This document shows positions 24,500 through 37,944 of a DNA stretch of 64,000 nucleotides, piece after piece; positions within the stretch are counted from its first letter, which is position 1; each line of letters begins with the position of its first letter. Made by a program: the position numbers and the translations under genes. The DNA comes from Vulcanisaeta moutnovskia 768-28 (lineage in GTDB: Archaea > Thermoproteota > Thermoprotei > Thermoproteales > Thermocladiaceae), in NCBI RefSeq assembly GCF_000190315.1, contig NC_015151.1, positions 434,001 through 498,000 of the forward strand. Reading direction: 5' to 3'. The notes beneath the pieces are model-generated. The model did no database searches. It saw nothing but the letters and a program-made list of their open reading frames with translations, and had not been told where the DNA came from.

Positions 24500-24904
24500 C
24501 TACGCCGCAGGTATAGATATTATGCCTAACATGGCCAATATTAGTAAAATTAGTATTATGAATGGTATAACTGATTGTAAGAATAGTTTTCTCCTGAATA
24601 GCCATACCGTGGCGGGTATTAGTCCTGCGATTACGGCGAAGCCTATCACCGCAACGGCTATCTTCTCTGCAACGGCTATTTTGGGCATACCGACGTAGCA
24701 AGTCTTCATAGCAGCCACCTTAGCTCCTGAAACCAGTTTATTGAGTTGACAAGTCACCGCATTGGTATTTACTAGGGCGAGGGCTATGAAGGCTCCAGTA
24801 AGGGCTATTATTCCAATAATCGCTAACCAATAGGCGACTAGCCCATAAGCCTTTGCCTCCGGTGGTGCCTCAGCAGACCTACGTATTTTATACATGAGCA
24901 TCAT
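24500..24904 (-). CDS. Three-span membrane protein, candidate partner of TauE-type exporter
   Basis: About 134 residues from ATG 24904, which overlaps the exporter stop (ATGA) and is preferred to longer in-frame starts inside that gene. Helices: YWLAIIGIIALTGAFIALALV, IAVAVIGFAVIAGLIPATVWLF and SVIPFIILILLILAMLGIIS, with an RRK between the last two. The loop after helix 1 holds C-x16-C (CQLNKLVSGAKVAAMKTC). The protein at 26948-27373 shares the topology and the identical C-x2-N-[KR]-L-x2-G-x8-C pattern. The layout resembles DUF1634 proteins, which often accompany TauE/SafE. Function unknown; a subunit role is inferred from coupling. Confidence 0.65.
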   Translation of the reverse strand: MMLMYKIRRSAEAPPEAKAYGLVAYWLAIIGIIALTGAFIALALVNTNAVTCQLNKLVSGAKVAAMKTCYVGMPKIAVAEKIAVAVIGFAVIAGLIPATVWLFRRKLFLQSVIPFIILILLILAMLGIISIPAA

Positions 24905-25854
24905 GGCGACCACCCCATGAGAATAGGTATTGCCTGTTGAAATAGCCTTACACTTGTTATTAGCATGACTGCAATTATTACCCATCTAATGATCGGTATT
25001 TTAGCCTTGGGCATAACTCTAACCCCTAATTCCGTACCAAGGACCATACCGATGACACAGGGAGCTAAGAATGGAAAAACCAAGGCACCACTATTTATAT
25101 AAACCCACAAAGCACCCGTATCGCCAATAGCTATCAATACCTTGCTCGTTGCAGCGGCGACCTTTAATGGTAAGTACATTACTAGATTATATACCGGCAC
25201 AATAGCCCAACCAGCTCCAACACCAAACATACCAGATACTAAGCCTACACCAATAAAGCATAGTAAGCCCCATACCGTATTAACGGCCTTATACGTTACG
25301 ACTGTCCTTAATGATTCCTCGTAATATCGAGCATTTTCTAATTGGAATATCCTCGCTATTCTATCAACCTTATTGACTGAGTTAGGAATATCCACCTGCC
25401 TTCCCCTCCATAGGAATAAACCGACAATAAACAACATCAGAGCAGCTAAGCCAAGCCTAATTGAGGCGACACCCACATTACCGAAGGATCTAGTGATCTC
25501 AAGCCCCAGTACCGCACCAAGTATCGAGGATACGGTATATGGTACTGCCGTAAGGATTATAGCGTTAAAATTGGCAAGCCCTTTACTTAGATATTGCCTT
25601 GACGCAATTAAGGAACCTACAGTGGCTATCGCGAGACCCGTTGTCCTTATAACGTCCGTATTAATGGCTGTGAAGGCCATCATTATCGGTGTGAATAAGA
25701 CAGCACCACCAACACCAGCCAATGCTGCCAGGAAGCCTATAATAATGCATATAACGAGCATGGTAATACAGAACACAACAAAATCCCACTGTGCATTGGA
25801 TGCGCCTATGTAGAGTGTGGTCCCAACGAGAAGTGGGTAGGTATTTAGCATCAT
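24901..25854 (-). CDS. TauE/SafE-family sulfite/sulfonate exporter-like protein (1)
   Basis: About 317 residues, eight to nine helices. The family repeats are clear: FLAALAGVGGAVLFTPIMMAFT in the first half and FIGVGLVSGMFGVGAGWAIVPVYNL in the second. A hydrophilic loop (RQVDIPNSVNKVDRIARIFQLENARYYEESL) lies between them. TauE/SafE proteins export sulfite, sulfonates or related anions. A TATA element at 25883-25901 places transcription start near 25860, so ATG 25854 or 25851 fits better than the longer ATG 25869. Close paralogue of 27375-28316. Its place in a sulfate-reduction block suggests export of a sulfur oxyanion, an inference. Confidence 0.85.
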   Translation of the reverse strand: MMLNTYPLLVGTTLYIGASNAQWDFVVFCITMLVICIIIGFLAALAGVGGAVLFTPIMMAFTAINTDVIRTTGLAIATVGSLIASRQYLSKGLANFNAIILTAVPYTVSSILGAVLGLEITRSFGNVGVASIRLGLAALMLFIVGLFLWRGRQVDIPNSVNKVDRIARIFQLENARYYEESLRTVVTYKAVNTVWGLLCFIGVGLVSGMFGVGAGWAIVPVYNLVMYLPLKVAAATSKVLIAIGDTGALWVYINSGALVFPFLAPCVIGMVLGTELGVRVMPKAKIPIIRWVIIAVMLITSVRLFQQAIPILMGWSP

Positions 25855-25882
25855 TCTATCACCGATCAATTGTTACACGTAT

Positions 25883-25901
25883 TATTTATAAACTTTGTTC
25901 T
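25883..25901 (-). promoter_or_regulatory. Promoter of exporter operon 1
   Basis: Read on the minus strand, AGAACAAAGTTTATAAATA combines a purine-rich BRE (AAAG) and a TATA box (TTTATAAAT). Eighteen of nineteen bases match the element at 28343-28361 before exporter operon 2. It lies about 29 bases before ATG 25854. Confidence 0.6.
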
Positions 25902-26009
25902 ACATTATGTTCGTAAATTAAGATATTTTTATTATTATATTATCAATATTATAGAATAAAATTCTAGAGAATACAATAAAAGCAATCTTATACACATGTA
26001 AAACTTTAA

Positions 26010-26894
26010 TTATTTAGTCGTGTTAGTGACTATGAATACTGTGTTATATGTTTTAATAATTGTATTCACGCCATTAATGTACTCACCAGTCCAATAACCC
26101 GCGTAGGTCCATTGCAAATTGCTTGGTGCGATCCATGATCCACTCTTCAATAGCCATAATGATAACGTTGCATTCAAGTAATTAAATCGAACACCCTGAT
26201 AATTACTTGCGCCGACCACCGTTACATCAATTAGGCCAAATCTTTTCATGTAAACTTTCATTCTAGTTATTTCAGTATCATTATAGTATAAAATCAATGT
26301 TTCGTTACTTGGTAGATAGACCATGATTAATGTACCGCATATTGGATAGTGTAATTCATGCCTCATACCTATTTCACGACATGTTATTGTCCCATTAAAT
26401 TTCAGCAAGCACCATAAGGGCTCTACCACATTCTCACCATTATAAGAGGTAATGAGTAGTACGTCTTGCACCCAATACCAGCTTCCATTAATTGCCTTAA
26501 GCCAGGTGTTTAATTGTACACTATAGCCAGGTATTAAAGTTAAGTTTTTATAGTTATTTACCGTGGGTGGCAATGAAACTCCTAATGCTGGATCTGCGTT
26601 ATAAACGCAAAAGTACGCCTTAACACCGGTATAGTTCATGCCACGTGGTATAATTACGCCAACACCAGGGTTGGTAGGGTTTGTTTTGTTTATCGTGACC
26701 CAAGTCACTGATCCGTTGATGTACTCTACAATGCATAAACCGCTTTGGCAATAATACTGCACTATATTTAAGCTGCTGATATACCTATTAAAATTAATGT
26801 TATGTCTCAAGTAGGTCACGAGTATACTAGGGCCTATAAATAATACTATGAATATCAAGGTTAGTCCTAGGATTAATAGCAATGAGGATTGCAT
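26010..26894 (-). CDS. Hypothetical anchored extracytoplasmic protein
   Basis: A 294-residue protein with one N-terminal transmembrane helix (LLILGLTLIFIVLFIGPSILVTYL, residues 6-29) and a long extracytoplasmic part rich in Asn-x-Ser/Thr sites, Tyr and Trp. Cysteine pairs (YYCQSGLCIVEY; LWCLLKFNGTITCRE) suggest disulfides. No family recognised. It lies alone between two exporter operons on the same strand, with its own AT-rich upstream region, and might be a secreted or surface accessory protein; that is a guess from position. Confidence 0.55.
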   Translation of the reverse strand: MQSSLLLILGLTLIFIVLFIGPSILVTYLRHNINFNRYISSLNIVQYYCQSGLCIVEYINGSVTWVTINKTNPTNPGVGVIIPRGMNYTGVKAYFCVYNADPALGVSLPPTVNNYKNLTLIPGYSVQLNTWLKAINGSWYWVQDVLLITSYNGENVVEPLWCLLKFNGTITCREIGMRHELHYPICGTLIMVYLPSNETLILYYNDTEITRMKVYMKRFGLIDVTVVGASNYQGVRFNYLNATLSLWLLKSGSWIAPSNLQWTYAGYWTGEYINGVNTIIKTYNTVFIVTNTTK

Positions 26895-26947
26895 TACTAA
26901 TTATAGTATCCTTAAAGTACTATATAAACTTATATTTGGTTTCAGAT

Positions 26948-27373
26948 TCACATATTAATCGATATTAATCCAAGGGCCGATAGTATTAATACTATCATTA
27001 TTAATGATGCGATTAATGCAAAGTTGATCTTCCTTCTTGTATATAGCATAATTACGGTTACGATAATCCCCATTATGGCGGCTATGCCGAATAGTATAAA
27101 ACCAATGTCCTGAAGCATCATGGCATATGAATTAGTATGCATGTACGTTATTATATTTATTATCCTAATTCCACTACTCTGTATACATGACTGTATGACA
27201 TTTGGTGCCTCACCATCCAATAGCCTGTTTATAATACAAACAGTATTGCCATAATGCTTAGTCACTGTTAATAGGAGACCCATGAAGGCCGTTATGATAC
27301 CAGCTATTGCTATCCAGAAGGCAATTTTGCTGTAGGTCCTTGATATCACTGATAATACTTTGTCCGATGCCAT
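26948..27373 (-). CDS. Three-span membrane protein, candidate partner of TauE-type exporter
   Basis: A 141-residue paralogue of the protein at 24500-24904: helix 1 AFWIAIAGIITAFMGLLLTV, a loop with CIINRLLDGEAPNVIQSC (C-x16-C, same N-R-L-x2-G spacing), helix 2 IGFILFGIAAIMGIIVTVIMLY, the RRK motif, and helix 3 ending LILSALGLISINM. It starts one base after the stop of its exporter gene (27375). The two conserved cysteines should lie outside the membrane and may form a disulfide or bind a sulfur species. Function unknown. Confidence 0.65.
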   Translation of the reverse strand: MASDKVLSVISRTYSKIAFWIAIAGIITAFMGLLLTVTKHYGNTVCIINRLLDGEAPNVIQSCIQSSGIRIINIITYMHTNSYAMMLQDIGFILFGIAAIMGIIVTVIMLYTRRKINFALIASLIMIVLILSALGLISINM

Positions 27374-27374
27374 A

Positions 27375-28316
27375 TTACACCACCCCCATTATTACAGGTA
27401 GTGCTTGTTGGATTAATCTGGCACTCGCTAAAAGCATCGCGAGGATTACAAACCACCTAATCACGTAAGCCCTCAACTTAGGCATTAATCTTGAGCCTAC
27501 CTGCGCTCCTATCATACAACCAAGGAGGCAGGGTACTGCGAATATGGGTATCATAGCACCACTGTTTATGTAGACCCACATGGCGGCCGTATCGCCAATG
27601 CCTATCACCACGAGACTGGTTGCTGTAGCTACCTTAAGTGGCACGTACATAATTAAATTATACACCGGCACAATAGCCCAACCAGCACCTAAACCAAACA
27701 TGCCAGAGACGAGGCCTATCCCCACAAAGCATAGTAAGCCCCACACCGTATTAACGATCCTATACTCTACTATGCGACCCAACGAAATTTCATAATAACT
27801 AGAATTAAGCTCAAACGCGTTAGCCAACTTATCATACTTACCCTCTGGTGGTATGGGATATTCTGTTCTTCTTCCCTTAGTTATCATGAGTATTACAATA
27901 AATAATACCAACACCCCCAGAGCGAATCTAATCAAGGCCTTACCGAAACTCCCCATAACCGCAGTTATATGAAGCCCGATGAAGGAGCCAATAATTGCGA
28001 AAATAGTATATGGAAGAGACGAGAAGAGGGCCAGGTTAAAGTTTGCAATACCTCTACCTAGATAAGGTCTTGCGGACATAAGTGAGCTCATTGTAGCTAT
28101 CGCAAGGCCTGTCGCACGCACTATGTCTGGATTTATAGTCGTGAAGGCCATCATTATCGGTGTGAATAAGACACCACCACCAACACCAGCCAATGCCGCA
28201 ACAAACCCTATCAATATACATATTAAAAAGATTATTATTAAAAATATAACTGGAGAATTAAGCAATGTAAATATATTATCTAATAATCCACTGATTATAT
28301 TGATGTGTACAGGCAT
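27375..28316 (-). CDS. TauE/SafE-family sulfite/sulfonate exporter-like protein (2)
   Basis: About 313 residues and highly similar to the protein at 24901-25854, including FVAALAGVGGGVLFTPIMMAFTTINPDIVRATGLAIAT and FVGIGLVSGMFGLGAGWAIVPVYNLIMYVPLKVATATS. ATG 28316 fits the TATA element at 28343-28361, about 27 bases upstream; a TTG at 28325 would add three residues. It is followed directly by a C-x16-C membrane partner gene, the same two-gene module as at 24500-25854, so the module has been duplicated. Confidence 0.85.
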   Translation of the reverse strand: MPVHINIISGLLDNIFTLLNSPVIFLIIIFLICILIGFVAALAGVGGGVLFTPIMMAFTTINPDIVRATGLAIATMSSLMSARPYLGRGIANFNLALFSSLPYTIFAIIGSFIGLHITAVMGSFGKALIRFALGVLVLFIVILMITKGRRTEYPIPPEGKYDKLANAFELNSSYYEISLGRIVEYRIVNTVWGLLCFVGIGLVSGMFGLGAGWAIVPVYNLIMYVPLKVATATSLVVIGIGDTAAMWVYINSGAMIPIFAVPCLLGCMIGAQVGSRLMPKLRAYVIRWFVILAMLLASARLIQQALPVIMGVV

Positions 28317-28342
28317 GGTCTTCAAGCTATGATTAGCCTAAA

Positions 28343-28361
28343 TATTAATAAACTTTGTTCT
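28343..28361 (-). promoter_or_regulatory. Promoter of exporter operon 2
   Basis: The minus-strand AGAACAAAGTTTATTAATA is a BRE/TATA-like element with 18 of 19 bases shared with 25883-25901. It is placed for a nearly leaderless start at ATG 28316. The conservation covers the BRE and the bases before it (AGAAC), so a shared regulator is possible. Confidence 0.55.
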
Positions 28362-28491
28362 CCAGATTTTCCTAAAATAAAACTAATTTATTAATTATTA
28401 TGAAATAATAATTAAATAAATTTACAAAATATTATTCTTAAGCGATTAACATTATTCTTCGGTATTACTTAATACAAATTTGTTTTCAACT

Positions 28492-29481
28492 CTAATCAGT
28501 TATATACTTTCTCATGATTAACAATATCATTAATGCTAATAATAGTACTGAGAATGCTATAATATGCCTGGTCATTATTGGTATAATGAGTATGTGCCCC
28601 CTATTTAATCCTGAAAGTAGCATCCTAACTGATAGGTATGAGAATACCGAAAGTAACACTACCTTTACTGATGATGATCGAACACGGGGTAATAAGTACG
28701 ATGCTAAGTACGCGCCTGGCGCTATACCGACTGCCGATGCCATGGCTAGGTATGGCTGTATATACCCAAAAGCCCAATAAAGTGATCCGCTAGTCGCCGC
28801 TGTCACACCTACTATCAGGTTGCTCGTTGCTGTGGCTACTTTTAATGGTAAGCCAATTACATTATATAGTGCAAGTATGTTTATGGGGCCGCCACCTATG
28901 CCCAATAATCCTGACATTAATCCTCCAAAGAACATAATGGGTATTGACTTAATGAGGTTCATTCTATAAATTGTGTAATTCACGTAGGTCTTAAGAGTAG
29001 TGTCGAAGAATACATCGTTCAATATTATATGGTCAATATCTTCTCGTCTAGTTAATATTGGGGTGATATTGTATTTTTCCTTTCTTTTTAATGATAGAAC
29101 CATTGTTAATATCATTATGAAACTAAATACCAAGTATAATATCCAATTAAATCCTCTGCTTATTAAATGGTATGCCATTAGCGATCCCATAATGGCACCA
29201 AACGTCGTTATTGGGCATAGGAATAACATCACCTTAACGTTAGGAAGCCTTATGTTTAAGTATCTATATCCGCTCATTAGAGAAGTCATTAGCGCTGACA
29301 CAAGACTAATGCCAGCAGCATACTGTATTGGTAGGTTCTCGAACACTGACGTTAATAGTGGTGTTAATATAACGGCACCACCAAGACCTAGAAGACCCCC
29401 TATTAACCCAGCCACGAATCCACATGCTAGGATTATTAAAAGTGTTATTATAAATTCGATAATGAAGAGCATAGGAATCAC
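28492..29481 (-). CDS. TauE/SafE-family exporter-like protein (3)
   Basis: A 329-residue membrane protein with both TauE repeats: FVAGLIGGLLGLGGAVILTPLL and FFGGLMSGLLGIGGGPINILALYNVIGLPLKVATATSNL. A cytoplasmic loop (LKRKEKYNITPILTRREDIDHII) separates the halves. It differs from exporters 1 and 2 in the signature (GIGGGPIN rather than GxGAGWAI) and resembles exporter 4. Its start overlaps the stop of the fusion gene 29478-30899 by four bases, so the two are co-translated and may form one transporter. Confidence 0.82.
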   Translation of the reverse strand: MIPMLFIIEFIITLLIILACGFVAGLIGGLLGLGGAVILTPLLTSVFENLPIQYAAGISLVSALMTSLMSGYRYLNIRLPNVKVMLFLCPITTFGAIMGSLMAYHLISRGFNWILYLVFSFIMILTMVLSLKRKEKYNITPILTRREDIDHIILNDVFFDTTLKTYVNYTIYRMNLIKSIPIMFFGGLMSGLLGIGGGPINILALYNVIGLPLKVATATSNLIVGVTAATSGSLYWAFGYIQPYLAMASAVGIAPGAYLASYLLPRVRSSSVKVVLLSVFSYLSVRMLLSGLNRGHILIIPIMTRHIIAFSVLLLALMILLIMRKYITD

Positions 29482-30899
29482 CCATGTAGTATGAAGATAG
29501 GTAGCACGAATATGGCTATCATCAAATTCACGAAGGTTATTAAGGCTAGCAACGTGTATAGGATATCTCTTTCTAACAAGAATCTTACGAAATTCAATAA
29601 AACCATAACTACTGGAATCGCTATTAATACCATTAACCCAAACATCATTAGACTTAATCCACCCAACCTTAGAATACCATCGAGTACGTACATTACAGTG
29701 ATTTCGCGCGTATTTACCATACTTGAGGGATCAAGAATTTGCTTCAGCTGCACGTGAAGGCCGACACTGCCTCCATGTAGGAAAAGCATTATTAAGCCCA
29801 ATATTAAGAATATGATGCTCAGGAGTACTCCGTATTTAAGTAGGTTGCTCACGATGCTCGTGAATTTCCTCTCAACCGCACTAGGGCTCTCAGGTTGAGC
29901 TTGGTATATCGTTATTGACATATCCTGAACTTCTTTATACTTATGTGTGAATATAATATAGAGTGATATTATTATTACTGAAGCAAGCACGGTGGCAATT
30001 ATCGTTCTCTCCAGCGATGTTATTGGTAGTAAACCCTCTCTGCCGAGGCCCCTAAGTACCATTCTGAAGCCTAGATAAGCCAGCACCGCTACGAAAACCC
30101 ACCTGACTTGCTTATTAGTTACGTACATGAGCATTCTAGTACCAATCCTAGAGCCTATTAAGACACCTATTGCGGTGCATGTTGCTATGAATGGACTTAT
30201 ATACCCAAAGTACCAGTAAAGTGAGCCGCTGGTTGCGGCTGTTACTCCTATCATGAAGTTGCTCGTTGTTGTACTCACCTTCATGGGCAGGTTCATGCCC
30301 CAGTCCATGGCGAGTACCTTAAGCGCGCCACTACCAATACCCAACAAACCACTAATAAAACCAGCAAAGAACATTATCAACCAACCGAGCCACCAACGAA
30401 CACCCCAATACTTATACCAAATCTTTAGTGCTGGATCATAGCACACCCCATAGAGCTTAAAGACCTTAGTTGTTCGATCTGGATTCCTTGGCGGTGGAAG
30501 TTCGCAAGTGCTTCTCTGTACGGTGGGTACTATTGATGCCAGCAGGACAACGCCGAATATTACGTATATGACCCAGGTAAGGCCGTGTGCATATACGAAA
30601 TTTGCTGTTAGTGAGCCTATTATTGCACCCGTGGTTGTTGCAGTGACTAGGCTAATGCCTATCCTATCATTAGCTAGTCTCTTCTTAACGTACACGCTGG
30701 CTGAACCAGCCGATGTGGATATTGTTGATATTAACGCGGAGCCCGTGGCATATATTATTGGTATACTTAGGAATAGTGTTAGTACCGGTGTCAAGACAAC
30801 GCCTCCACCAAGCCCAGCCAAGGCACCGAGTAAACCAGCTACAATACCTGCAATTATGAACTCCAGCATTTTCAATAGATCAAATATTACGGTGATCAT
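29478..30899 (-). CDS. TauE/SafE-family exporter fused to a DUF1634-like membrane domain
   Basis: A 473-residue protein. Residues 1-320 form a TauE-type exporter (LLGALAGLGGGVVLTPVLTLF; FFAGFISGLLGIGSGALKVLAMDWGMNLPMKVSTTTSNF). Residues about 330-473 form an added three-span domain (LLKYGVLLSIIFLILGLIMLFLHG; LRLGGLSLMMFGLMVLIAIPVVMVLL; YTLLALITFVNLMIAIFVLPIFI) that looks like DUF1634. The fusion supports a physical complex between exporters and the small three-span proteins encoded beside exporters 1 and 2. Promoter: TATA-like element near 30921-30934 for a nearly leaderless message. Confidence 0.8.
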   Translation of the reverse strand: MITVIFDLLKMLEFIIAGIVAGLLGALAGLGGGVVLTPVLTLFLSIPIIYATGSALISTISTSAGSASVYVKKRLANDRIGISLVTATTTGAIIGSLTANFVYAHGLTWVIYVIFGVVLLASIVPTVQRSTCELPPPRNPDRTTKVFKLYGVCYDPALKIWYKYWGVRWWLGWLIMFFAGFISGLLGIGSGALKVLAMDWGMNLPMKVSTTTSNFMIGVTAATSGSLYWYFGYISPFIATCTAIGVLIGSRIGTRMLMYVTNKQVRWVFVAVLAYLGFRMVLRGLGREGLLPITSLERTIIATVLASVIIISLYIIFTHKYKEVQDMSITIYQAQPESPSAVERKFTSIVSNLLKYGVLLSIIFLILGLIMLFLHGGSVGLHVQLKQILDPSSMVNTREITVMYVLDGILRLGGLSLMMFGLMVLIAIPVVMVLLNFVRFLLERDILYTLLALITFVNLMIAIFVLPIFILHG

Positions 30900-31107: not shown

Positions 31108-33608
31108 TTACCTTGATATACCTAACCTGCCAAGCATTAATTTAGCTCTATCATTAATTGCAAAATTAACAAATAAGCAATAGAGTGCTACCGCCGCGAA
31201 TTCCTGCCAGGTTATTGGTGTTAATAAATGACCCCATGGACCCGGCAATCCCGTTAATGCTATAAACGCTACCACAACCATATCTATTACTGATGCTATT
31301 ATTAGCCACTTACCTGGTCTTGATACCCAGAATGGCCCTCTCTCCCTAACTATGAATGGTGTTAGTACTCCCATGTACATAATCGCCGTGAAGTAATACG
31401 TATGTAACACATGTACGTTGCCTATGTGGAAGTAGTCAAGAGCTAGGAACAATAGACCGAACATCTCGGCTACAGTAAATATCCCAAGTCCAACACCTAA
31501 CTTCACAAGTTTAGGTACGTCCCACTTCTCCGGCGTTGGTGAGCCTTTGGCATTATCCGTGGATAAGGATATGGTCACGAAATCAATCAAAAATAGGAAA
31601 AGCGTTACGTCAAGCGCAGAGACTGCATATATTGGGTTGTGCCAAAATAGAGCTGAGATTATGAAGGCCAAGGTTACGAAAACAGCTATTTCAAATGTTT
31701 TAACAACCTTATTGAGTATCCATGTGATGATCCTCTGGAATGTTGACCTGCCAATCCTAACGAGCTCCACAACACCCGAAAGTCCCTCAACAGTCAGAAC
31801 AACACTAGCCGCCGCCTTAGCCACATCAGTCGCGTTACTAACGGCTATACCAACCTCGGCCTGTTTAAGGGCTGGTGAGTCATTAACACCATCACCAGTC
31901 ATACCAACTATTTGCCTACTTGCCTGCAGGCTTTTCACGATGAAGTACTTATCCTCCGGGTAAATCTCAGCAAATACATCAGCCTCCTCAGCAAGTTTAG
32001 CTGCCTTCTGCGGTTCTTTCTCAAGTAATTCCTTTAGTTCTTTACCAGACATCACATTCTCGCCAAGGCCGATGATCTTGGCTATTTCCCTGGCAATGGG
32101 CTTAGCATCACCGGTCAGCATCTTAACCCTAACACCCAAATTCCTAAGCTCCTGGATTAGCTTAGGAGTGTCCTCTCTAGGTATGTCATATAATGCCACG
32201 AGGCCAACCATCTCCCAGTGATCACCATCCTCAGACTTAGCCACACCCAGCGTCCTATAGCCACTTGCCGCAAAGGAATTCATAATACTTTCAACATCCT
32301 CACCCAACTTTATCCTGCATAAATCCTCAGCTAATGTCCTAACGGCACCCTTAGTAACCCTAAATATGCGACCACCATTATTTCTATCCACAACCAAGGC
32401 CTCTGTGCGCCTCGTTGATGGATCAAAGGGCTTGAACTCCTTAACCTCGAAATCATTAATTAGTAATTTTCTTTCCTTCGCAGCCCTTATGAAGGCCAGG
32501 TCTATTGGGTCTTGATTAGCCTCTTGACTCGCTAATGCACCATAAAGTAATACTTCATTCTCAGAGTAACCTTTCATGGGAACAACATGAGTAACTGTTA
32601 ACCTATTGTAGGTTAGGGTTCCCGTCTTATCCGCGCATAATACTGTCATAGATGCTGAATCCTCAACGGCACTGAGCTTCGTTATTAATGCACCCTTCCT
32701 AGCCATTTCCTGAGCTCCAACGGCCATGGTTACCGTGAACATGGCGGGTAGCGCAACTGGTACTGCGAATACGATTAGCATTATTGCCAGGGGCAGTACG
32801 TAGTCCGCCAGAAACATTAGACTGTGTAGGTAGAAGTAGGTTAGTGGGAACATGACTATTACGAGAATGGAAACCATAATTAGCAAGGCCGAGACGACTT
32901 TAGATATTATCTCTTCCATATGTAACTTAGGCCTAGCTGTTTGAACTAGTTGTACTGTCTTTCCAAAGTACGTATTTAACCCAGTCCTAACAACCACGGC
33001 AGTAGCCTCTCCCCTCCTGAGAATGGATCCAGAGTACATTATATCACCCTTCCTCTTAATCACAGGCATGCTCTCCCCAGTGAGTGCTGATTGGTCGACC
33101 TCAACCTCCTCACTGGTTATTATCTTAGCATCAGCGGGCACTATATCACCAGCCCTAATTCTAATTATATCACCAGGGACTAAGAACCTCGCTGGTAGTG
33201 CCTGCCAGACGCCATTCCTAAGAACCCTAGCCATAACCTGAAGTCTCTGCTTAAGTAATTCAACCGCCCTTGCAGCGTGTTCCTCATGGATAAAACCAAT
33301 TAATGCATTAACAACAAGCAAAGCAGCGATGATGTAAGCATCAACAAGCCTGGCCGGATCTATTGTTAAACCAAGGATTATGCAGACAATCATCGCTGCT
33401 TCAAGCATCCATGCAGTGAATCCCCAGAACTTCTTAGCAAACTTCTTGGCTGGGTGTTCCTTCTTCTCGGGTACCTCGTTATAGCCATACCTCTTGGCCC
33501 TCTCGTTAACCTCAGCATCACTAAGCCCTGTATTTGCATTTGTGTTTAATTCCCGTAAAATTCCTCCACGGAAATAGTCTCATAATTACGAGACTTCTCG
33601 GGCAACAT
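31108..33608 (-). CDS. Plasma-membrane-type P-type H+-ATPase, N-terminus frameshifted
   Basis: The main frame from ATG 33408 (766 residues) holds LTGESMPVIKRKGD, the phosphorylation motif CADKTGTLTYNRLTV, the hinge MTGDGVNDSPALKQAEVGIAV and about ten helices, as in the type IIIA proton pumps of plants, fungi and archaea. The conserved N-terminus GLSDAEVNERAKRYGYNEVPEKK is visible upstream in the same frame but has no ATG, GTG or TTG. In another frame, ATG 33608 gives MLPEKSRNYETISVEEFYG, which joins it if one G is added to the GGG at 33552-33554. So the gene is frameshifted, or this is a base-calling error. TATA-like CTTATAAAC at 33638-33646. Confidence 0.88.
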
Positions 33609-35927: not shown

Positions 35928-37313
35928 CTAGGATCTGGCCTTATTGATCAAGATTCTTCTAAGCATCCTACCAATTACATCATAAGTATCTGGGTGAATG
36001 TGTAGGTAATGAGCGTAGGCATTATTTATTTGAAAACCATCAAAGCCATGAATACCAACTCCTCTTTCATATTTAATAACGAATTCATAATTACCACGCA
36101 ATATTAATGAGGAGTAATGAAACTCATGACCCATTAAAACAGTACCTGCATCACCAATCACAGAATCCCTAATCACCCTAGCCCTCGCATAGCCATACCA
36201 CATGGGCTTTCTATGCATTATTGTTATAGCGTCTATGGCACCCACCATCTCGTATTCCTCGTTATTATAAATAATTGAGTCCGTTAAATACATTAAACCA
36301 CCACATTCAGCGTATAGGTGTTTTCCTGAATCTATGAACCTACGTATGTCGGACTTAAGCGACCTATTCCTCTCAAGGGATTCTCCATAAACCTCAGGAA
36401 AACCACCACCAATTAATAATAGGTCTAGATCACCAAGTTCCTGGTCAACTTCAGGATCAATGAACTTAATATTATTCGTAAATGTTTGAATTCTCTCTAT
36501 GGTTTCTGGGTAATAGAATGTAAACACTCTCCCACCTAATATACCCACTCTTACCTCATTACTTATTATTTTAGATGTATCTAAGCTTACGTAATTCCTC
36601 ACTTCAAGGGGTTCCGAGTATTCCCTGGCAACCCTAACAACCTTATCAATATCTATAAATTTCGACACGTCCTTAAACACCTCAATTAAACGCTGCTTAT
36701 TAATTTCCTCAGCATGAATCAAGCCTAAATGCCTATATTGCATTATACTCTCTAAATCATCATTCCTCGGTATATAACCCAGAAAAATCAAACCTTCATC
36801 CTCAACGGCAATCCTTAACTTCTCTAATTGTCTTTGATTAACGTTAGTTACTACAGCACCCGCTATCCTCACGTCACTATCAAAGTCCTTTAATCCCCTA
36901 ATTATTGCTCTCACCGTTCTATTAATCCTCTCCCCATTAATTACAAGAACAATAGGTGCCTTAAGAAGCTTAGCAATCTGAGCGGTGCTACCCACTTCGC
37001 TAATGCCATCAATGCTGTCATAAAGCCCTGAGACACCCTCAACGATTGCAATGTCCGAATTCAGGGAGTACTTGTAAAACCTTGAAATGACCTTATCACC
37101 CATTAATACGTAATCAAGGTTCCTACTCAATGTATTAGTGACCGCAAGGTGATAACTTGGATCTATATAATCAGGACCAACCTTAAATAGAGATACCTTT
37201 AATCCTGCCCTAATCAATGCATAAGACAACGCTAATGTGGCCGTTGTCTTACCATTCTTACCCTTATACGATGCTATGATGAGCCTAGGTATCGTAATTT
37301 CCATAATTATCAC
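35928..37313 (-). CDS. dsrN: Siroheme amidase DsrN-like (CbiA/cobyrinate a,c-diamide synthase family)
   Basis: A 461-residue protein of the CbiA family: an N-terminal ATP-binding domain (YKGKNGKTTATLALSYALIRAGLKVSLFKVGPDYIDP) and a C-terminal glutamine amidotransferase domain with the nucleophile in YAECGGLMYLTDSI and a later HYLHIHP. CbiA makes the a,c-diamide of cobyrinate; the homologue in dsr clusters, DsrN, is thought to amidate siroheme for DsrAB. Position in the sulfate-reduction block and coupling to a siroheme-type methyltransferase gene favour DsrN; a cobamide or F430 role cannot be ruled out. ATG 37313 or 37304; both overlap the upstream gene. Confidence 0.75.
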   Translation of the reverse strand: MIIMEITIPRLIIASYKGKNGKTTATLALSYALIRAGLKVSLFKVGPDYIDPSYHLAVTNTLSRNLDYVLMGDKVISRFYKYSLNSDIAIVEGVSGLYDSIDGISEVGSTAQIAKLLKAPIVLVINGERINRTVRAIIRGLKDFDSDVRIAGAVVTNVNQRQLEKLRIAVEDEGLIFLGYIPRNDDLESIMQYRHLGLIHAEEINKQRLIEVFKDVSKFIDIDKVVRVAREYSEPLEVRNYVSLDTSKIISNEVRVGILGGRVFTFYYPETIERIQTFTNNIKFIDPEVDQELGDLDLLLIGGGFPEVYGESLERNRSLKSDIRRFIDSGKHLYAECGGLMYLTDSIIYNNEEYEMVGAIDAITIMHRKPMWYGYARARVIRDSVIGDAGTVLMGHEFHYSSLILRGNYEFVIKYERGVGIHGFDGFQINNAYAHYLHIHPDTYDVIGRMLRRILINKARS

Positions 37314-37944
37314 GTCTTATTATAAATATTAATGATGGAGGTTTTACATTAAGTTCATCAATAACTGGATCGTTAATATCTAGTCTATGTGCTTCTTCAT
37401 CAGGATACGTAACCCTACTAATCACTATTACGTCATTCCTGTCACTGAATTTACGTATTAACTCCTTCGCAATCCTTGTTCCCATAAATATGACCTTAAT
37501 GTCGGATTCAACATCATAATCAATGTCTGGATAGGCCATTAATGTAACTATGCCCTTTAATTCAACCATGAATCTGGCGGCCGCGGCTGTAAAACTACTA
37601 ACTCCCGGTACTATCTCGCAGGGAATACCATTACGTATGGACTCTTTACAAATCTCAACTCCTCTGCCAAAGATCACTGGATCACCGTTCTTAAGGAAAA
37701 CAACATTAAGACCTCTCCTGGCCAGCTCTATTGCTTTGATTATGTATTCCCTATGGGCATCACCCCTAACATGACCCATATATATCCTTTCAGCCTTTGG
37801 TGCATACATACTTATTATCTCCTCATTGACTAATGAACCGTAAAAGACAATATCCGCCTTGTTCAGTATCTTAATGGCCTTTACAGTAATTAATTCAGGA
37901 TCCCAGGGACCTACTCCAACGACATAAATCGAAATAACAATCAC
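37285..37944 (-). CDS. Tetrapyrrole methylase, SUMT (CobA)-like
   Basis: A 219-residue SAM-dependent tetrapyrrole methylase: YVVGVGPWDPELITVKAIKIL at the N-terminus, VVFLKNGDPVIFGRGVEI (the P-loop-like GDP-x-IFGRG motif of uroporphyrinogen-III methyltransferases) and GIPCEIVPGVSSFTAAAA. SUMT makes precorrin-2, precursor of siroheme, the DsrAB cofactor. It is slightly shorter than usual and lacks the common PLTHR segment, so another C-methyltransferase is possible. The start is a GTG. It is coupled to the DsrN-like gene by a 20-29 base overlap. A sulfate-operon palindrome variant lies 39 bases upstream. Confidence 0.78.
   Translation of the reverse strand: MIVISIYVVGVGPWDPELITVKAIKILNKADIVFYGSLVNEEIISMYAPKAERIYMGHVRGDAHREYIIKAIELARRGLNVVFLKNGDPVIFGRGVEICKESIRNGIPCEIVPGVSSFTAAAARFMVELKGIVTLMAYPDIDYDVESDIKVIFMGTRIAKELIRKFSDRNDVIVISRVTYPDEEAHRLDINDPVIDELNVKPPSLIFIIRRDNYGNYDT

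Follow-up and report, generated by a model that had tools for sequence, protein, structure and literature searches.

Four TauE/SafE genes of Vulcanisaeta moutnovskia and their three-span DUF1634-type partners: a probable two-component TSUP transporter system

The window analysed here is a 64,000-nucleotide stretch of the hot-spring archaeon Vulcanisaeta moutnovskia 768-28, positions 434001–498000 of its complete 2,298,983-base genome (G000 in our survey), and our subject is a group of four TauE/SafE (TSUP) transporter genes that lie between 24.9 and 30.9 kb of this window, together with the small membrane proteins encoded beside them. All of these genes are on the minus strand. The transporters are called exporters 1–4 after the family name, and each of them matches the Pfam TauE model (PF01925) with 121–149 bits against a cut-off of 32.6. 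Exporter 4 (29478–30899) combines a TauE region (145.6 bits, residues ~1–320) with a C-terminal DUF1634 domain (PF07843; residues 350–464, 80.2 bits against a cut-off of 27.5) that contains three membrane spans. Exporter 3 (28492–29481, 149 bits) is without a partner of its own, and its start lies inside the stop codon of exporter 4 in a GTGA overlap. Exporter 2 (27375–28325, 137 bits), which more likely starts at the ATG at 28316, is followed by the gene for partner 2 (26948–27373), which starts 1 nucleotide past the exporter stop. Exporter 1 (24901–25869, 121 bits) is likelier to start at the ATG at 25854 than at the TTG of the 25869 frame, and partner 1 (24500–24904) starts at 24904 within the stop codon of its exporter (ATGA overlap), which gives a protein of 134 residues as against 161 for the longest open reading frame. 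The initial annotation of this stretch had described four TauE/SafE exporters, the coupling of exporters 1 and 2 to small three-span proteins, the DUF1634 fusion in exporter 4 and the coupling of exporter 3 to it, and all of these features were confirmed.

All four exporters carry a glycine-rich motif in both TauE repeats (GLGGG with GIGSG, or GVGGG with GxGAG, with small variations). TauE consists of two homologous halves, which appear in the model of exporter 4 as two similar sets of helices. A Shine-Dalgarno-like GGGGTGG precedes both partners, within or just past the last codons of exporters 1 and 2. Relatives show the same style of overlap (GTGA in Caldivirga), with the GGGGTGG located within the conserved exporter end "MGW". 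Among the 64 open reading frames of at least 130 residues in the window, which served as a control, exporters 1 and 2 alone have a small three-span frame behind them (0/62 for the others). An Rfam scan of the region from 22 to 36 kb of the window returned one tRNA and nothing else.

Partners 1 and 2 each have three hydrophobic spans and are homologous to one another (29% identity, E 2e-12). The motif C-x2-N-[KR]-L-x2-G-x8-C, pointed out in the initial annotation, is exact in both of them, with its cysteines and glycine at C52, G60 and C69 in partner 1 and at C46, G54 and C63 in partner 2, but only part of it is general. Across nine Cys-type partners from the Vulcanisaeta and Caldivirga groups (two genera by their genome codes) an extracytoplasmic C-x7-G-x8-C is invariant (9/9), whereas the N-[KR]-L stretch is not kept in the relatives. 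No pattern like C-x7-G-x8-C was found in 115 DUF1634-type sequences, and the partners of two more distant exporters have a Cys pair at the shorter spacing C-x7-G-x5-C. The likeliest role of the pair is a disulfide. Against the Pfam DUF1634 model partner 2 scores 17.3 bits, under the cut-off, and its Caldivirga orthologues score 28.9–42.8 bits, over it. An hhalign comparison of the Cys-type partners with DUF1634 gave a probability of 87% with a pairwise E of 4e-6 and covered all three spans. Because partner 1 resembles partner 2, the Caldivirga orthologues pass the cut-off and the profile comparison extends over all three helices, we assign partners 1 and 2 and the fused domain of exporter 4 to one superfamily, within which partners 1 and 2 are divergent DUF1634 relatives as judged by sequence; the initial annotation had set the small proteins apart from the DUF1634 domain. 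The members have three spans and either follow a TauE gene immediately or form part of a fused TauE protein. Eight further unannotated three-span partners of 87–159 residues, each directly behind a TauE gene, were found by their position in the partnered clade described below (loci L106, L131, L132, L133, L134, L135, L097 and L224). Six of these overlap the exporter gene or start at its stop, and they are mostly too diverged for the Pfam model. Pfam DUF1634 is probably the mere core of a wider partner superfamily.

The V. moutnovskia genome contains seven TauE genes, which equals the published TSUP count for this strain (PMC5840216); outside the cluster, one is followed by a DUF1634 gene (a detached pair at 1.42 Mb of the genome) and two are not. 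Among the 81 surveyed genomes of the class, each above-cut-off DUF1634 match with an inspected neighbourhood either immediately follows a TauE gene or continues its reading frame, and so do most of the weaker matches. In one genome (G071) a second, short DUF1634 match occurs ~670 nucleotides behind a complete pair. For the rest of the Thermoproteota, outside the class, 71 DUF1634 loci were read and three further loci were left out. TauE is directly upstream on the same strand at 69/71 of these, a number that includes L197, where only a TauE fragment was recognised; the two exceptions are a spurious match in a frame with stops (L203) and a contig end (L205). The bacterial sample consisted of plasmid records, with annotations made by others, and a few of 25 contig loci. 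TauE–DUF1634 pairs are present at five bacterial plasmid loci, from Thermus, Latilactobacillus, Enterococcus, Listeria and Granulicella, and also in Clostridium, in Acidobacteria and in the archaeal Micrarchaeota. Lactococcus lactis and Sulfolobus acidocaldarius likewise yielded DUF1634 matches. The initial annotation had argued that the small proteins and the exporters form a unit, a view that would fail if the small proteins occurred mostly away from TauE genes. The survey supports this view: hardly any of them is found other than immediately behind TauE. The fusion, too, is genuine and conserved.

Two further observations were made at such loci. Tandem double TauE–DUF1634 pairs on one strand were seen at L145–L147 and L162 (family f32; genomes G377, G228 and G336). 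A gene for a Rieske-type iron-sulfur protein adjoins the pair in an archaeon (G096; L164, 1935–2792, identified by eye) and on a Thermus plasmid (L049, 2699–3292, annotated), and its presence in two unrelated lineages is possibly a hint to function.

In a maximum likelihood tree of 108 TauE sequences, every partnered or fused row falls within a clade of 85 (96/91), made up of 45 rows with DUF1634, 13 fused, nine with Cys-type partners and eight with other three-span partners, and there are no partners among the 23 rows outside it. The partnerless rows inside the clade are L125, L096 (near a contig end) and an eight-row clade that contains exporter 3, all of whose members (8/8) lie directly behind a fused exporter 4. 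The fused form constitutes one clade of 12 rows (100/100), limited to this archaeal family and spread over at least three genera. The thirteenth fused row, L078, an apparent second fusion, probably reflects a frame error in its assembly, and a 411-residue frame in L182 was judged not to be a fusion. By this sequence evidence the fusion had a single origin, within this archaeal family, and exporter 3, its constant companion, is a derivative without a partner. Exporters 1 and 2 belong together in a 9-row clade (99/97) within a 15-row clade (100/100); the remaining rows of this larger clade come from other genera and have diverged three-span partners. The program flags some joins between long branches as unsure, mostly among the outside rows and also at the base of the 15-row clade.

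Inheritance of exporters and partners was compared for 24 pairs in eight genomes by means of the best matches of each. Orthology was concordant in 156/168 cases, where 60 were expected, and the 12 discordant cases are Cys-type queries in genomes in which no Cys-type pair was found. Since these 12 lack a counterpart, all of the answerable cases (152/152) agree, without swapping between subtypes. The subtypes also differ in the transport core. In the motif of the second repeat a Lys is present in 44/45 DUF1634 rows, 11/13 fused rows (exporter 4 among them) and 4/4 basal rows, at a position that is mostly Leu, Ile, Val or Phe in other TSUP proteins, Asn in exporter 3 and its relatives (8/8) and Ile or Val in the Cys clade (9/9). 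The position 28 alignment columns further on is Asp throughout the Cys clade (9/9) and in 4/6 members of its wider clade, as against Ala in the DUF1634 clade (58/58). Exporters 1 and 2 on one side and 3 and 4 on the other are thus genuine subtypes in terms of the tree and the core residues, as had been proposed from their motifs, and the differing residues support a different cargo or coupling.

With alignments that were shallow, that differed between the two jobs and that in the fused job included the query again as duplicates and fragments, AlphaFold2 modelled the natural fusion of exporter 4 with a predicted local distance difference test score (pLDDT) of 72.5 and a predicted template modelling score (pTM) of 0.77, and the TauE part alone with 66.2 and 0.66, respectively. 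The loss is centred on residues 61–80 and 201–220, which are equivalent places in the two repeats. A free-floating DUF1634 domain would be expected to keep the pTM of the fusion at or below ~0.66, and a defined contact between this domain and the transport domain is therefore likely in the model. Searches of the PDB by sequence and by fold gave no significant match to a solved structure.

Exporters 1 and 2 also have a promoter element in common. The element GAACAAAGTTTAT lies upstream of exporter 1 (25888–25900, minus strand) and, as a TATA-like sequence, upstream of exporter 2 (28348–28360, minus strand), and the latter recurs before the orthologue in G014, which we take to be V. distributa. 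The longer AGAACAAAGTTTATNAATA has exactly two occurrences in the genome when up to 2 mismatches are allowed, one before each of these exporters and at a similar distance from their likely ATG starts. It looks like a promoter with a B recognition element and TATA box (BRE/TATA), and its sharing may mean either common control or retained duplicated sequence, both of which are possible. A sigma-70 promoter scan performed the same as on its shuffles, and this promoter model is not applicable to archaea. The block of exporter 1, partner 1, the gene for a 294-residue protein, exporter 2 and partner 2 occupies this place only in G000 and G014, and other Vulcanisaeta have the same flanks without it. 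Exporters 4 and 3 hold a conserved place near the cobB/sirA and apr–dsr genes in several Vulcanisaeta, and in Caldivirga (G001 is presumably Caldivirga maquilingensis) one cluster combines a DUF1634 pair and a Cys-type pair with a fused exporter.

Located 5–21 kb off on the exporter 4 side of the window are cobB/dsrN-like, sirA-like, sat, aprAB, qmoC-like, dsrK, dsrM and dsrAB genes, from which the initial annotation had suggested sulfite, thiosulfate or sulfide-related ions as the likely cargo. The genes are indeed present, but the linkage holds in several Vulcanisaeta and not in Caldivirga, where 88 kb separate the cluster from dsrA and ~677 kb separate it from aprA, and the pairs in Listeria, Enterococcus, Thermus and others have no sulfate-reduction neighbourhood in the stretches read. 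For this reason the linkage was dropped as general evidence of cargo. By inference from the family alone, the cargo would most likely be a sulfur oxyanion or a small sulfonate. Beside the sulfate-reduction genes, at 35928–37944 on the minus strand, a gene for a CobB-type a,c-diamide synthase adjoins a uroporphyrinogen-III methyltransferase-like gene; as expected, this pair fits siroheme amide synthesis (DsrN-like).

We consider it quite probable that the locus encodes two-component TSUP transporters, each comprising a two-repeat transport protein and a dedicated three-span DUF1634-type subunit. The sequence comparisons establish the unity of the partnered clade, near-obligate adjacency, a single origin of the fusion, the lack of partner swapping and two core chemistries, and what speaks for physical contact is the fusion together with a moderate AlphaFold model. 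The transport protein and its subunit would be produced from one transcript by way of overlapping or nearly adjacent frames, or as one fused chain in exporter 4. As a lasting subunit the partner may pack against the transport core, stabilising or gating the transport domain. Exporter 3 no longer has the core Lys or a partner of its own and probably acts together with the fused exporter 4. The acidic core residue, the Cys-pair partner and the shared promoter element of exporters 1 and 2 would mark these two as another unit, which probably handles a different anion or uses a different coupling. There is an outside chance that DUF1634 is the obligate second subunit of an unrecognised two-component TSUP class with separate, fused and shared states, in which exporter 3 is non-canonical and relies on the partner of exporter 4, and in which the Cys-pair partner of the second subtype confers sulfur- or redox-dependent gating.

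Several points weigh against the two-component interpretation. Partner 1 has no match to Pfam DUF1634 at E up to 1. The neighbours of TauE–DUF1634 pairs at 15 loci, assessed by eye, are varied and include no recurring sulfur gene, which bears on the proposed cargo. The AlphaFold confidence is moderate and the interface is read from pTM and pLDDT. Adjacency and fusion, finally, would equally suit an assembly factor. If the three-span protein were such a dedicated chaperone or assembly factor of its TauE and not a lasting subunit, coupling and obligate adjacency would fit just as well; we consider this unlikely, given that the in-frame fusion, which is a permanent 1:1 attachment, has been kept across the genera of the 12-row clade and that the transport domain is modelled with higher confidence when the DUF1634 domain is present. 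The partners, chiefly those of the Cys-pair type, might also be sensors or redox modules, in which the cysteines outside the membrane would bind or pass on sulfur or signal the redox state to the transporter. The habitat of this archaeon is sulfur-rich and reducing, and the Cys pattern that is invariant in the nine partners is absent from the DUF1634-type sequences; however, a structural disulfide accounts for the same pattern and Cys-free partners exist in the wider exporter clade, which makes such a role quite unlikely. A chance or hitchhiking neighbourhood, with small proteins unrelated to the exporters, has a negligible probability, being contradicted by the near-universal adjacency in archaea and bacteria, the fusion, the lack of partner swapping and the control frames of the window.

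The export direction had been assumed from the family name. Import of sulfate, sulfite or thiosulfate for dissimilatory reduction would be compatible with two-component transporters, since sulfate reduction requires uptake and the sat, apr and dsr genes are close by. The sulfate-reducing archaea surveyed in the literature have no SulP and mostly no DASS proteins, but 4–11 TSUP proteins (7 in V. moutnovskia), and the TSUP proteins of sulfate reducers have been discussed in terms of possible sulfate uptake (PMC5840216). A tauE homologue of A. fulgidus has been proposed for sulfite import (PMC3949148). Import remains a tentative proposal in view of the missing linkage in Caldivirga, of a genus (g3) in which aprA and dsrA were matched but no DUF1634 match passed the cut-off, and of the common occurrence of the pair outside this family.

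Two other genes of the region deserve description. Between the pairs of exporters 1 and 2, the gene at 26010–26894 (minus strand) encodes the 294-residue protein, which has one N-terminal anchor, is probably extracytoplasmic beyond it and gave no match in a Pfam search. G014 alone has a counterpart at the corresponding position (78% identity), and a relative at 30% is encoded at another site in G024. This protein could be an extracytoplasmic accessory protein, although it is uncertain whether it belongs to the transporter system. A plasma-membrane type P-type proton ATPase is encoded at 31108–33408 (minus strand), extending upstream to ~33500. Its N-terminal ~40 residues lie upstream of the first ATG, in part in a different frame; the apparent break of the frame is either real or due to sequencing. 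At the place of this gene only a 73-residue remnant was matched in the complete genome G014, and none in G017.

TSUP transporters are widespread, and their workings are poorly understood. If the two-component interpretation is correct, an entire Pfam family, DUF1634, would gain a role, assays or structure determinations that leave out the partner of these TSUP proteins could fail or give misleading results, and exporter 4, as a natural fusion, would be a ready construct for structure work. The Lys, Asn and Asp marks offer a way to separate the subtypes in annotation. The Pfam entry for DUF1634 gives no function, and no mention of the family was found in the open literature searched, in which the two-gene unit is apparently undescribed; the adjacency itself can be read from existing annotation.

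Among known systems, SGLT2–MAP17 and similar transporters likewise have a small membrane subunit of their own; the likeness is one of analogy, without a claim of homology, and SGLT2–MAP17 appeared in the fold search as an insignificant match only. The exporters themselves are like other members of the TSUP/TauE-SafE family (PF01925, TCDB 2.A.102) in that all four score far over the cut-off and have the glycine-rich motif in both repeats. Characterised TSUP proteins, such as TauE of Cupriavidus necator (cited in PMC12421959 and PMC3949148), are discussed as single proteins, whereas the clade described here has a predicted dedicated second subunit and core residues (Lys or Asp) unlike those of other TSUP proteins. 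With respect to DUF1634 (PF07843), the C-terminus of exporter 4 is a clear member and the Caldivirga relatives of partners 1 and 2 pass the cut-off, while the two partners in the window fall under it and have the invariant Cys pair in addition. The two-gene unit is real and general and its parts are ordinary, with a fusion and a Cys-pair variant that are local.

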